Assembly (NCBI RefSeq): GCF_026712205.1
Contig: NZ_JAPPUW010000007.1
Span: forward strand, 62,001 to 126,000
DNA from: Pelomonas aquatica
Lineage (GTDB): Bacteria; Pseudomonadota; Gammaproteobacteria; Burkholderiales; Burkholderiaceae_C
Direction: 5' to 3'
DNA: 64,000 nt
The notes beneath the pieces are model-generated. The model had not been told where the DNA came from and did no database searches. It saw only the letters and a list, made by a program, of their open reading frames with translations. This document shows positions 5,656 to 60,622 of this stretch, in pieces. The position numbers were made by a program, and so were the translations under genes. How positions within the stretch are numbered: position 1 is the first letter of the stretch; every line of letters begins with the position of its first letter.

Positions 5656-6093
5656 ATGAGTCTGAAGACAAGCCTGTGCGCCGCCGTCGCGGCGCTGTCC
5701 CTGTCCTTCCCCGCGCTGGCCCAGGAGTCCAGCTACACCCAGGGTTCGGTCTGGTTCTTCTCCAGCATCCAGGTCGAGCCGGGCCAGTTCGAGAACTACA
5801 TGGACTACCTGAGCACGAACTGGAAGAAGGTGCAGGAGCTGGGCAAGAAGGAGGGCGTCGTCGTCTCGTACCACGTGCTGTCGGTGAACGCGCAGCGCAC
5901 CGGCGAGCCCGACCTCATCCTCGCCGTCGAGTCCAAGGACTACCGCACCAAGGCGCAGGCCGAGGCTTTCCAGAAGAAGATCGAGGCCCTGCTCGCCGCG
6001 GACGCGCGCCAGCAGACGACTGCCTCCGGCCAGCGCGGCACGATGCGCAAGCTGCTGGGCAATATGGAGCTGCAGGAGCTGCTGCTGAAGTAG
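5656..6093 (+). CDS. Small exported protein of unknown function
   Basis: The 145-aa product has a clear signal peptide (MSLKTSLCAAVAALSLSFPA, cleavage after ALA-Q near residue 22). The mature part is about 120 aa, rich in charged and aromatic residues. It looks like a dimeric alpha-beta barrel: a beta start (QGSVWFFSSIQV), then a FENYMDYLSTNWKKVQELGKK helix and a later VVSYHVLS strand. I do not recognise a named family. A good ribosome site (AAGGAG at 5642-5647) supports the start. The gene stands alone, with 219 nt upstream and 106 nt before terC. Confidence 0.75.
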   Translation: MSLKTSLCAAVAALSLSFPALAQESSYTQGSVWFFSSIQVEPGQFENYMDYLSTNWKKVQELGKKEGVVVSYHVLSVNAQRTGEPDLILAVESKDYRTKAQAEAFQKKIEALLAADARQQTTASGQRGTMRKLLGNMELQELLLK

Positions 6094-6199
6094 CCCACCG
6101 CGCGAACCCCACGGAAAACCGAAGCGACGTTCAGCCGCAGGCTGTCCGTGGCCGAGCAGGCGCTGGCGACAATGCCCGGCTCGCCACGGACGCCCCGAC

Positions 6200-6961
6200 A
6201 TGCTCGAACTGCTCGCCAACCCGCAGACCTGGATCGCCCTCGCGACGCTGACCGCGCTGGAGCTGGTGCTGGGCATCGACAACATCATCTTCATCAGCAT
6301 CCTGGTGGACAAGCTGCCCAGGGCCCGCCAGGAGCTGGCGCGGCGCGTGGGCCTGTTCGCGGCGATGTTCATGCGCATCGGCCTGCTGCTGGTGCTGGCC
6401 TGGATCGTCGGCATGGTGGAGCCGCTGTTCACGCTGCCGGTCCTCGACCAGGGCATCTCGGGCCGGGACCTCATCCTCATCAGCGGCGGCCTGTTCCTGA
6501 TCTGGAAGAGCACCGGCGAGATCCACGGTTCCCTCGAAGGCGAGGACGAGGCCCACGGCGGCGGCCAGGCCCGCGCGGCCTTCGGCGCCGTCATCCTGCA
6601 GATCATGGTCATCGACCTGGTGTTCTCGCTGGACTCCATCGTCACCGCCGTCGGCATGGTGGAGGACGTGCGCGTGATGATCGGCGCCGTCATCTGCTCG
6701 GTCGCGCTGATGATGCTGTTCGCCGGCCCCATCGGCCGCTTCGTGTCCGAACACCCCACCATCAAGATGCTGGCGCTGAGCTTCCTCGTCGTCGTCGGCG
6801 TCGTGCTGGTGGCCGAGGGCTTCGGCCACCATGTGCCCAAGGGCTATATCTACTTCGCGATGGCCTTCTCTCTGGCCGTCGAGACGATGAACATCAAGAT
6901 GCGCAGGAAGGCCGCGAGCAAGGTCGTGCTGCGCCAGCAGATTCCGGGTGGCGAGGACTAA
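6200..6961 (+). CDS. TerC-family integral membrane protein
   Basis: The 253-aa product has about seven transmembrane segments. The two TerC hallmarks with acidic residues buried in helices are both present: ALELVLGIDNIIFISIL near residue 20 and IDLVFSLDSIVTAVGMV near residue 140. The family is linked to tellurium resistance and, in several bacteria, to manganese or other metal export and metalation of exported proteins. This copy lacks the CBS/CorC extension of longer relatives. No tellurium-resistance neighbours are present, so a metal-homeostasis role is more likely, by inference. The stop overlaps the convergent DUF6445 gene. Confidence 0.92.
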   Translation: MLELLANPQTWIALATLTALELVLGIDNIIFISILVDKLPRARQELARRVGLFAAMFMRIGLLLVLAWIVGMVEPLFTLPVLDQGISGRDLILISGGLFLIWKSTGEIHGSLEGEDEAHGGGQARAAFGAVILQIMVIDLVFSLDSIVTAVGMVEDVRVMIGAVICSVALMMLFAGPIGRFVSEHPTIKMLALSFLVVVGVVLVAEGFGHHVPKGYIYFAMAFSLAVETMNIKMRRKAASKVVLRQQIPGGED

Positions 6962-57688: not shown

Positions 57689-60061
57689 ATGGCCACCCCG
57701 CCCAAACCACCCCGCGCCGCCGCCATCCCCGCCGCGGCCCTGCCCGCCGACGCCGCCGGCGACGATGCCGACGAGCCGCTGGACGACGACTTCCACTTCG
57801 TGCTCGGCGAGCTGCTGGCCGCCTACAAGCCGGTGCTCGCGGCCGACCTGCAGCGCGCCGATTCGCCCGACGCCCTCATCAAGGATGCGCTGGCCAACCC
57901 GCCCAGCTGCGAGGACGAGTTCGCGCAGGCCATGGCGCTGTTCGAGCGCTTCAGCAGCGAGGAGGTCGCGCAGCGCGTGCTGCCCGCGGCCGTGCGCGAG
58001 CAGCTCGGCCCGCTGGAGCGCTGGCGCTGGTGCCTGCTGCATCTGCGCTGCTGCATCGTCTTCGGCTGGCTGATGTGCCGCGGGCCGCGCTCCTTCCGCG
58101 GCTCCAGCTACTACCTCTGGCGCTACTGGCGCTGCGTGCGCGAGGTGCTGGGCGCGCCCGTCGCCAATCCGCCCACGGCCGTCGAGCGGGCCGACTTCAA
58201 CCACCTCGTCAAGGCGCTGGCCGAGGCCTACAAGCCCTATCTGGACGACCAGCTCGCCAACGTCGAGTTCGCGCAGGGCCTGCCCGAGCAGGTGCTGTCC
58301 GGCCAGGTCGACTGCTTCGAGGACGGCGACGTCAACACGCAGATCCTCGAGCGCCTGCTCAGCACCGACACGGCCGCCGCGCTGATGGGCCGCGAGCTCA
58401 TCGCCAAGCACCGCGCCGACCCCTTCTACTGGTTCTGCCGCTGCTGGGCGCTGTGCGCCATCCGCTTCGGCTGCTGCCTGGCACGGGCGCGCAATCTGCG
58501 CGACGTGTTCCGCTGCCTGCGCAGCTACCGCGCCTGCCTGCGCCGCTGCCAGCACCCGCTGCACTGCCGGCTGACCGCGCCCACCGGTTGCGTGCGCGGC
58601 GAGACCGACATCCTGGCCAGCCGCATCCTCGAACCCGTGCGCGGCGATGCCGAGGGCACGGGCTTCGGCCACTACGTCATCGAGGTGCGCAGCCCCGGCG
58701 GCAGCCTGCTGAGCGGCGTCGTCATCTATCCCAGCAACCTGGGCCTGCCCGACGTGGCCGCCACGCAGGGCAACTTCTCGGTCGCGGGCGGCAACCTCGG
58801 CTGGGTGGACACGCGCAAATGCGCAGTGGACGCCGGCATCGAGCTGCTGACGTCGACCACCTTCACGCTGACGCTGCGCGTGTTCTCTTCCACCGGCGCC
58901 GAGCTGCAGCCGCCCTGCACCGGCAGCTTCGCGCTGTCGGTCAACGAGGTCTACATCAAGCGCGTCAGCACGCCCTGGTCGGTGGACTACCCCAACCCGG
59001 CCGAGCCGCTGCGCGCGGCCGACAGCGTGGCGGCGGCCCTGTCCACCGTCGGCGGCGGGCTGCATGTGCGCGGCGCGGCCAACGTGTACGGCTGCACCGG
59101 CGAGAAGATCCGCGAATACACCATCTGGGCCATCCCCGACCCGGGCTTCAGCGAACCCCAGCCGGCGCCGTTCACGAGCATCGTGCCCGGCGGCAGCTGG
59201 CGCCTCGTGACGCACATCGAGTTCAACGCGATGAGCATTGCCCAGCCCAGCGGCCCGCCGATCAACTACACGGCCGACCAGGTGCGCAGCAGCAATGTGC
59301 TGGACGGCAACCCCCTGCCCAGCATCCTGACCAACGTCTGGGGTGCGCGCAGCGAGTGCATCTGCGTGCACATCGACTCGACCAACTTCTGCAACTGCTG
59401 GAACGTGCCCTCTCTGGAGCCCGCGGGCTTCGACAGCAATTCGCTGCCCAAGCAGGATCCGCCCAACCAGTTGGGCGGCACGGGCAAGTTCAGCTTCCTG
59501 CTGCAGGTCATCGACACGGCCGGCAACAGCTACTACGACATCCAGCGCGCCTGGATCGACAACGAGCCCATCCAGGCCGCCATCGTCGGCATCGGCAACC
59601 AGGCACCCTGCTCCGACATGTACACCCAGACCCACGAGGGCATCTTCAAGACCGTGGACATCCGCGGCTACGCCTGGGACCAGTACATCGACCGCGCCGA
59701 CCTCACGGCGCCGACCAGCAACAACTTCGACAGCTACCAGGTGCACTTCAGCAAGCAGGGCGCGGTGTCGCCCCAGGTCATGCTGATCAACTCGACCAAC
59801 ACCGTGCCGGCGCGCGCGCTGGCCCTGCCGGCCGAGAGCCTGGCCACCGGCACGCTGACGCCCTGGAACCTGCAGGTGCTGGACGCCGCCAGCAACCCGC
59901 TGGGCCTGCCGGCCGACCAGCTGCTCGGCCCCGGCGAGGCCTGCGTCTACGTCGTCATCCTCGAAGCCTGGGACAAGACCGTCGTCAACGAGGGCAGCGT
60001 GCACGACTCCGGCTGGAAGCTGTTTCCCATCAAGATCATCAACGGACCGGAACCGCTGTGA
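57689..60061 (+). CDS. Cys/Trp-rich 790-aa protein with duplicated N-terminal domain, unknown function
   Basis: I do not recognise a family. Residues 34-155 and 169-287 look like two copies of one domain: both start with an AYKP segment (45-48, 180-183) and end in a Cys/Trp/Arg-rich helix (RWRWCLLHLRCCIVFGWLMC; PFYWFCRCWALCAIRFGCC). 17 of the 26 Cys lie before residue 302. There is no signal peptide. Residues 300-790 look like a series of beta-sandwich units (FGHYVIEVRSPGGSLLSGVV, KFSFLLQVIDTAGNSYYDIQ). A ribosome site (AAGGAG, 57676-57681) sets the ATG. The gene heads a three-gene operon (4-nt overlap with the DUF1360 gene). Confidence 0.85.
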   Translation: MATPPKPPRAAAIPAAALPADAAGDDADEPLDDDFHFVLGELLAAYKPVLAADLQRADSPDALIKDALANPPSCEDEFAQAMALFERFSSEEVAQRVLPAAVREQLGPLERWRWCLLHLRCCIVFGWLMCRGPRSFRGSSYYLWRYWRCVREVLGAPVANPPTAVERADFNHLVKALAEAYKPYLDDQLANVEFAQGLPEQVLSGQVDCFEDGDVNTQILERLLSTDTAAALMGRELIAKHRADPFYWFCRCWALCAIRFGCCLARARNLRDVFRCLRSYRACLRRCQHPLHCRLTAPTGCVRGETDILASRILEPVRGDAEGTGFGHYVIEVRSPGGSLLSGVVIYPSNLGLPDVAATQGNFSVAGGNLGWVDTRKCAVDAGIELLTSTTFTLTLRVFSSTGAELQPPCTGSFALSVNEVYIKRVSTPWSVDYPNPAEPLRAADSVAAALSTVGGGLHVRGAANVYGCTGEKIREYTIWAIPDPGFSEPQPAPFTSIVPGGSWRLVTHIEFNAMSIAQPSGPPINYTADQVRSSNVLDGNPLPSILTNVWGARSECICVHIDSTNFCNCWNVPSLEPAGFDSNSLPKQDPPNQLGGTGKFSFLLQVIDTAGNSYYDIQRAWIDNEPIQAAIVGIGNQAPCSDMYTQTHEGIFKTVDIRGYAWDQYIDRADLTAPTSNNFDSYQVHFSKQGAVSPQVMLINSTNTVPARALALPAESLATGTLTPWNLQVLDAASNPLGLPADQLLGPGEACVYVVILEAWDKTVVNEGSVHDSGWKLFPIKIINGPEPL

Positions 60062-60375
60062 CCTTGGACGAAATGGGCTTCTGGCCACGCCTGGCACTGG
60101 CCGCGCTCGCGGCCTGGCGGCTCACGCATCTGCTTGCGGCCGAGGACGGGCCCTTCGGTCTCGTGCTGAAGCTGCGCACGCGCCTGGGCAACGGCGCCTG
60201 GGGGCAGCTGATGGATTGCCCCTACTGCGTGTCGCTATGGGTGGCCGCGCCGCTGGCGCTGCTGCTCGCGCGGGACCTGCTCGGCTGGGCCCTGAGCGTG
60301 CTGGCGCTGTCGGGCGCCGTCTGCATCGTCGAGGCCGCGCTGGACACGCTGGCCTCGCCACGCAAGGAGAGATGA
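60058..60375 (+). CDS. DUF1360 small membrane protein
   Basis: The 105-aa product starts at GTG 60058, overlapping the preceding stop by 4 nt (GTGA); an ATG five codons in is possible. Two hydrophobic segments (LALAALAAWRLTHLLA and VAAPLALLLARDLLGWALSVLALSGAV) flank the DUF1360 hallmark DCPYCVSLWVA. The family occurs in some sporulation and phage-like contexts in other phyla, but its function is unknown. Here it sits between two other Cys-containing proteins of unknown function. Confidence 0.88.
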   Translation: MTLDEMGFWPRLALAALAAWRLTHLLAAEDGPFGLVLKLRTRLGNGAWGQLMDCPYCVSLWVAAPLALLLARDLLGWALSVLALSGAVCIVEAALDTLASPRKER

Positions 60376-60376
60376 C

Positions 60377-60622
60377 ATGGGATGTTGCGGACAAGGCCGG
60401 GCGGCGCTGCGCCAGGCCACGAGCCCCACGCCGGAGCGGCCGGCGGCCGGGCCGGCCGAGCGGCGCGTGCTGGTGCACTACCGCGCCGGCGCGCCCGTCG
60501 TCGTGCGCGGCGTGGCCAGCGGCCGGCTCTACGAGTTCGACGCCGCTCGGCCAACGCTCTACGTCGCCGAGGGCGACGCGGCGGCGCTGCTGCGGTCGCG
60601 CTGGTTCGAAAGATCGGACTGA
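60377..60622 (+). CDS. Small Cys-leading protein, 81 aa, unknown function
   Basis: The product begins MGCCGQGR, then a Pro/Ala-rich stretch, then one small beta-rich domain (VLVHYRAGAPVVVRGVASGR followed by LYEFDAARPTLYVAEGDAAAL). The RG(x)nSGRxYxFD pattern resembles small structural proteins of phage-like clusters, but I cannot assign it. It starts 1 nt after the DUF1360 stop, so the three genes are translated together. The convergent yfiN-like gene begins 2 nt beyond its end. Confidence 0.8.
   Translation: MGCCGQGRAALRQATSPTPERPAAGPAERRVLVHYRAGAPVVVRGVASGRLYEFDAARPTLYVAEGDAAALLRSRWFERSD

Follow-up and report, generated by a model that had tools for sequence, protein, structure and literature searches.

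A conserved three-gene unit of a duplicated Cys/Trp-rich protein, a DUF1360 membrane protein and a small MGCC protein in bacterial genomes

Membrane proteins of the DUF1360 family are represented in two libraries, as PF07098 and as phrog_781, both of which give no function. In tailed phages such proteins can be part of head modules with the order terminase, DUF1360, portal; Gordonia phage Sixama and Microbacterium phage Big4 have DUF1360 directly upstream of the portal gene. Proteins with tandem immunoglobulin-like or fibronectin type III (Ig/FnIII) domains are represented by RTX adhesin repeats, S-layer proteins and the FnIII modules of CbhA, and copper-storage proteins are helical bundles lined with cysteines that bind Cu(I). 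Here we report on a stretch of 64,000 nucleotides from Pelomonas aquatica (contig NZ_JAPPUW010000007.1, positions 62,001 to 126,000; hereafter the window) in which a DUF1360 gene is located between the genes of a large, cysteine-rich protein (the big protein) and of a small basic protein starting with MGCC. No description of this trio was found in open-licence papers; within that literature DUF1360 was met in one paper, PMC10551460, as a row of a table.

As a kind, this gene system appears to be new, and so does the family of helical domains in the big protein; a later functional assignment could make either of them a variant of something known. Being conserved, complete under eight phylum labels and composed of proteins two of which lack a significant family match, the trio is a clear target for function finding. 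It also supplies co-selected partners for a membrane family that phages carry beside the portal, and work on it bears on that phage gene.

Organization, recurrence and spread of the trio

The genes of the big protein (57689..60061, + strand; 790 aa), the DUF1360 protein (60058..60375, + strand; 105 aa) and the small protein (60377..60622, + strand; 81 aa) follow each other closely. The TGA of the first (60059-60061) overlaps the GTG start of the second (60058) within the tetranucleotide GTGA (4 nt), and between the stop of DUF1360 (60375) and the ATG of the small gene (60377) lies a single nucleotide. Coordinates and frames are those given in a first-pass annotation of the window, which had proposed an unrecognised three-gene operon. 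Ratios of non-synonymous to synonymous substitution rates, determined for six genome pairs per gene among four relatives, were 0.15-0.28 for the big gene, 0.24-0.42 for the DUF1360 gene and 0.10-0.25 for the small gene. The trio is a compact three-gene operon, and all three genes are under purifying selection. Neither a sigma-70 promoter nor a terminator consensus was found when looked for.

A scan with two peptide patterns of genome_contigs, in which each of 84,980 species is represented by a single genome, gave matches in 220 stretches and led to the 38 loci with a relative of the big gene that are reachable by these patterns. At 30 of them the big, DUF1360 and small genes are all present in this order, hence they are not rarely neighbours, and the unit recurs far beyond the Burkholderiales. 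The full trio lies within the fetched DNA at 29 loci; at L045 it is split over two contigs. One locus (L019) has the big and the small gene without DUF1360, and seven have the big gene alone. Given this recurrence and the substitution rate ratios, the observed trio is not due to chance. When the 35 genomes behind loci L014-L048 were searched as a whole, the small gene was found in 28 and DUF1360 in 27, and the two were jointly present or jointly absent in 34; the seven genomes lacking both are those of L031, L034, L035, L037, L040, L043 and L044. All 35 contain the N-terminal domain of the big protein in one copy.

Within the genus the big gene is carried by five of 20 genomes, including that of the window; in one of the five (G008) the trio has the same order at a site that differs as judged by the flanking genes. 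Roseateles saccharophilus DSM 654 (L011) has the trio as well. The big gene is rare further out, since of the genomes sampled from the order (399) and from the phylum (398) only that of the window was recovered. Two genomes hold additional copies of parts of the trio: the acidobacterial G827 (L092, G827:C12) has a second, partial trio whose small gene shows an in-frame stop in the match, and in G818 (L094, G818:C149) additional matches to DUF1360 are present but no further small gene.

The rows of the big-protein tree bear ten phylum labels. These follow the records, some of which read only 'Deltaproteobacteria', and, many genomes being metagenome-assembled, labels and absences are not fully safe. 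Full trios occur under eight labels (Pseudomonadota, Acidobacteriota, Gemmatimonadota, Methylomirabilota, Verrucomicrobiota, Rhodothermota, Myxococcota and Actinomycetota), while Deferribacterota and Thermodesulfobacteriota are on the tree without a full trio. The alignments omit L036 (a near copy of L017), L011 and L012 (near copies of the window gene) and the partial L040 and L045. Acidobacterial and burkholderial rows are interleaved with high support, and the sister of the window's clade is a row from the Solibacteraceae; the trio is therefore likely to have spread by horizontal transfer. The big-only state, represented on the tree by six of the seven genomes (L040 being too partial), needs three changes, which are forced by well-supported branches (mean of shuffled labels 5.6; 2 of 500 shuffles as low). 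Joint loss of the DUF1360 and small genes has thus probably occurred more than once, and the three changes are also compatible with one gain and two losses. Distances of the big, DUF1360 and small proteins correlate over 27 rows (Mantel r 0.31, 0.44 and 0.56; none of 2000 permutations as high) and do so without the window's clade (r 0.31, 0.45 and 0.50). The three genes almost certainly act as one functional unit.

Conserved cysteines and a possible membrane-anchored assembly

Two homologous Cys/Trp-rich domains had been noticed at the N-terminus of the big protein, and comparison of residues 30-160 with residues 161-300 by hhalign bears this out (E 5.7e-19 over 123 columns). The first helical repeat comprises residues 32-155 (57782..58153, + strand), in which 33-34 of 34 aligned relatives retain Cys 74, 115, 121, 122 and 149; in the second, residues 167-289 (58187..58555, + strand), the same conservation is seen for Cys 209, 250, 252, 256, 263, 276, 283 and 287. 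Four cysteines of each repeat are equivalent (74/209, 115/250, 121/256 and 149/283). Over the entire alignment 15 cysteines are present in all 34 rows and C74, C209 and C469 in 33, C74 and C209 being absent together from one and the same row. The window protein has 26 cysteines, of which 16 fall within residues 1-300 and the 17th at position 301, in line with the N-terminal count of 17 made before. Residues 289-787 (58553..60049, + strand) are modelled mainly as beta sandwiches with a generic Ig/FnIII-like fold, as had been anticipated for some 490 residues.

Profile and fold searches gave no confident match of the big protein to a characterised family, and Pfam, NCBIfam, PHROGs and PADLOC contained no significant match to either the big or the small window protein. 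Against PDB sequences the big profile retrieved mostly antibody heavy chains (E 0.034 or worse, not significant). The profile of the helical N-terminus had no match up to E 10 there and no significant one in Pfam, and the fold matches to the beta-sandwich part stop short of this half. Scattered weak family matches across trio members were taken as chance.

The membrane protein belongs to DUF1360, as previously stated, with 30.9 bits against a gathering cut-off of 21 (E 2.7e-7; profile positions 52-101 of 102). W20, R21, H24, E29-P32, R40, G44, C54, C57, S59, S85 and G86 are invariant in 27 aligned rows; the window protein has an EDGP motif and shows the invariant CxxCxS as the CPYC reported earlier. 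A CxxC followed by a hydrophobic helix, a membership feature taken from the alignments made here and not from the Pfam text, is present, with C54 and C57 invariant and a model helix at residues 55-69. In the structural model (mean predicted local distance difference test score 85.5) the first helix is long and is followed by a loop that includes short helices, by the helix beginning at CxxC and by a long last helix. Mean counts of Lys plus Arg are 3.7 in the CxxC loop, 0.04 in the N-terminal segment and 0.7 in the short turn between the last helices; the difference between the first two values weakly suggests that CxxC lies at the cytoplasmic face. No solved structure in the PDB, exporters included, matched DUF1360 significantly or convincingly, and its profile found one unconvincing fusion protein among PDB sequences (E 0.17).

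The small protein of the window starts with MGCCGQ, the MGCC having been pointed out before, and contains a conserved C-terminal part. CCG stands at the start of all 28 aligned small proteins; G45, Y52, F54, D67 and F77 are invariant. Among relatives the conserved features are thus CxxC in DUF1360 and CCG in the small protein. At 21 of 29 loci (L017, L020, L029, L039 and others) the small gene begins, in a different frame, 38-197 nt before the DUF1360 gene ends, and of the eight loci without overlap six form the window's clade. A 'GMLRTE'-like motif of the DUF1360 tails is what the alternative frame yields for the MGCCGQKR stretch (derived by hand for L017), so that the coding of CCGQ is probably the constrained one of the two frames. 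The small profile retrieved nothing from PDB sequences up to E 10, and the window protein gave in Pfam only a sub-threshold PilZNR match (E 0.33).

A protein without a signal peptide normally resides in a reducing compartment, where many invariant cysteines point to metal or redox use and not to disulphides. As the first-pass annotation had noted, no signal peptide is evident in the big protein by hydropathy; a decapeptide above 1.8 within the first 45 residues occurs in three of 34 rows, and several of the 34 rows begin at the match and not at the true start. Together with the many invariant cysteines this leads us to favour, tentatively, a model in which the trio forms a membrane-anchored, cysteine- or metal-organised assembly facing the cytoplasm, two parts of which have phage relatives. 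DUF1360 would provide the platform in the membrane, with its CxxC located at the inner face, and the small protein would be an adaptor docking by the Cys-Cys at its N-terminus and by its C-terminal part. The big protein would serve as the main structural or ligand-binding part, with the duplicated helical head held by cysteine-bound metal and the Ig-like modules extending to bind a partner. Orientation, metal binding, assembly and the roles of the parts are all inferred. A metal-, thiol- or membrane-linked assembly had been suggested in the first-pass annotation, and the conserved cysteines would fit it.

Several observations weigh against this model. The CxxC loop of DUF1360 is as acidic (mean Asp plus Glu 4.0) as it is basic, which makes the positive-inside argument weak. 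Seven genomes hold the big gene with neither partner found, some in incomplete assemblies, and the big protein may therefore work alone. Moreover, 28-29 of 34 rows have cysteines in six C-terminal columns (near window residues 596, 650, 704, 735, 751 and 784) where the window and its four nearest rows have none; such extra cysteines of the beta part, found in most members and missing jointly from the window's clade, would fit disulphides outside the cytoplasm as well.

This joint pattern, as paired disulphides could produce it, is compatible with a small export or display system, in which DUF1360 and the small protein take the signal-less big protein to the surface, where its Ig-like modules would form an adhesin or a layer and its cysteines disulphides. 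Adhesin extender repeats, a Deinococcus S-layer protein and RbmA are among the best-ranked PDB matches of residues 289-787. However, these matches are generic Ig/FnIII arrangements, which weighs against the assembly model as well, and Ig-like folds are too common to imply surface display. Since, in addition, the big protein lacks a signal peptide evident by hydropathy and the 105-aa DUF1360 protein has no convincing match among solved exporters, we consider export rather unlikely.

The invariance of CxxC and its position at the start of a predicted helix, along with invariant cysteines in all three proteins, would also suit a thiol-redox relay, DUF1360 shuttling electrons or disulphides between the Cys-Cys of the small protein and the big protein. 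We regard such a relay as doubtful because no thioredoxin-like family is among the Pfam matches, DUF1360 has no significant match in the PDB, and its homologues sit among terminase and portal genes in annotated phage records. A module for metal storage or metal resistance along the lines of the copper-storage proteins is improbable, the two Cys-rich helical repeats and a possible carrier role of the Cys-pair small protein notwithstanding: it leaves the Ig-like half unexplained, no such gene family recurs beside the trio in an all-against-all comparison, and the Metal_resist match seen in one of 17 N-terminal members (E 0.04) is at chance level for 17 members.

Phage relatives of the DUF1360 and small proteins

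A profile search with the trio DUF1360 proteins found 17 viral contigs, whose copies share 28-45% identity with those of the trio. Downstream genes were profile-searched in nine contigs, and in six of these the next large gene encodes a portal (phrog_776, with E values of at most 2.3e-80); no profile match was obtained for the genes tried in L049, L056 and L057, and the other eight contigs were judged by eye only. In Rhodococcus phage ReqiPine5, DUF1360 is in the terminase/head region with no named portal adjoining. Altogether the portal is the next large gene after DUF1360 in eight of 12 phage or viral records checked. A different position is seen in viral contigs L063 (5881-6210) and L065 (5860-6201), where DUF1360 directly follows a capsid-like gene (by eye) and does not precede a portal gene. 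DUF1360 certainly has phage relatives.

The small protein probably has phage relatives too. In viral contig L049, 435 nt beyond DUF1360 and past one other gene, a 67-aa protein starting MGCCGDRR is encoded which, among open reading frames of the 17 viral loci, was matched by the trio small-protein profile with E 1.9e-6 (best single stretch 3e-4); a second match (L056, E 0.0026) was treated as chance. Other searches speak against phage kinship of the pair: at E 0.1 no named phage was retrieved with just the window DUF1360 protein as query, the small protein of L049 found only itself among viral contigs and no named phage, and that of L021 found no viral contig. The DUF1360 copy of L049, by contrast with the window's, retrieved 13 records.

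The same 102-kb contig carries, alongside these two genes, a gene matching phrog_1211, which is PurZ-like, of the kind that makes the modified base 2-aminoadenine; the genes concerned lie at L049:1630-2952 and 5986-6927. A small protein starting MGCSCGGKR is encoded after a head-morphogenesis gene in ReqiPine5 (gp13; L069:10872-11096). Small proteins with Cys-rich N-termini may be common in such phage head modules.

Searches of the viral_contigs, phages and plasmids collections did not yield the big protein, for which reason descent of the trio as a whole from a virus or plasmid was rejected. Comparison of the region with plasmids by blastn gave 82 records, and the 20 matches listed are confined to the stretch over the neighbouring EAL gene. 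The suggestion that the system might be phage-derived therefore holds in part: the DUF1360 family occurs in phage head modules and an MGCC homologue near DUF1360 in one viral contig, but the big protein was found in no viral collection, and the window DUF1360 has no direct match to a named phage.

With DUF1360 relatives that adjoin the portal gene in phages, a patchy spread and a head domain present once per genome, the trio might be thought of as an anti-phage module that spoils portal or head assembly, yet this is very unlikely because none of six proteins tested had a PADLOC match, no defence family recurs beside the trio and its DUF1360 proteins are distant from the viral copies found. It is tempting to speculate, at low confidence, that the trio is a new kind of mobile bacterial system in which phage-kin DUF1360 and MGCC proteins were joined with a bacterial Cys-rich Ig-like protein into a membrane-bound machine. 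Such a system would have arisen a single time and spread across many phyla, its phage-kin pair being lost jointly on more than one occasion. At the membrane it may interfere with the assembly of phage heads; alternatively, it may form its own phage-like particle.

Neighbouring genes and comparison with known systems

In the window the trio is flanked by an M16 peptidase gene upstream and a GGDEF-EAL gene downstream, with a YfiR-like protein, a TonB-type receptor and a glyoxalase-like protein encoded further out; five of six flanking proteins belong to ordinary bacterial Pfam families and one to none. The M16 gene adjoins the trio in four of the five genus carriers, G008 being the exception, and the GGDEF-EAL gene only in the window and in G003. 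Neither gene is therefore part of the unit. An all-against-all comparison of flanks of up to 8 kb at the 38 loci revealed no other neighbour common to the loci at large, and no portal, terminase, capsid or defence gene family recurring beside the trio; flanks outside the window were covered by this comparison without a gene-by-gene profile search. By eye, kinase-like genes were seen at eight loci, ABC-type ATPase-like genes at six and GGDEF/EAL-like genes at five. Radical-SAM genes occur at three (L032, L043 and L044; by eye except for L043, assigned by Pfam). None of these kinds is general across the 38 loci. tRNAs were present within two of 14 loci tested.

Two neighbourhoods show features of their own. 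At the big-only loci L043 (7442-11149) and L044 (4400-8031) the opposite strand carries a radical-SAM gene, which in L043 has SPASM and weak PqqD matches, a subtilase gene with repeated CYRAPIC-like motifs and an additional short gene resembling the N-terminus of the subtilase; these genes are perhaps a peptide-modification locus. A NAL1/trypsin-like gene pair (NAL1_N weak and below cut-off, Trypsin_2 above cut-off) lies near the trio, on opposite sides, at L021 (2328-3650) and L038 (11065-12529), loci of different phylum labels.

Among described systems, tandem Ig/FnIII proteins resemble the big protein in a generic fold, with no significant sequence match; the modules of the Ig/FnIII type that characterise surface adhesins are present in its residues 289-787 by fold matches. 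With copper-storage proteins it shares helices and cysteines, Cu(I) binding being a property of the former. Kinship with the DUF1360 proteins of phage head modules is evident from the 17 viral loci and from phrog_781, to which 26 of the 27 DUF1360 proteins from trios have a match, whereas no phage structural gene family recurs at trio loci and the big protein was not retrieved from viral collections. Finally, the 105-aa protein of the window is a member of PF07098 by the Pfam cut-off, and trio members differ from the family as represented in PF07098 and phrog_781 by their EDGP motif and, in many cases, by a C-terminal tail whose coding sequence runs into the gene that follows.

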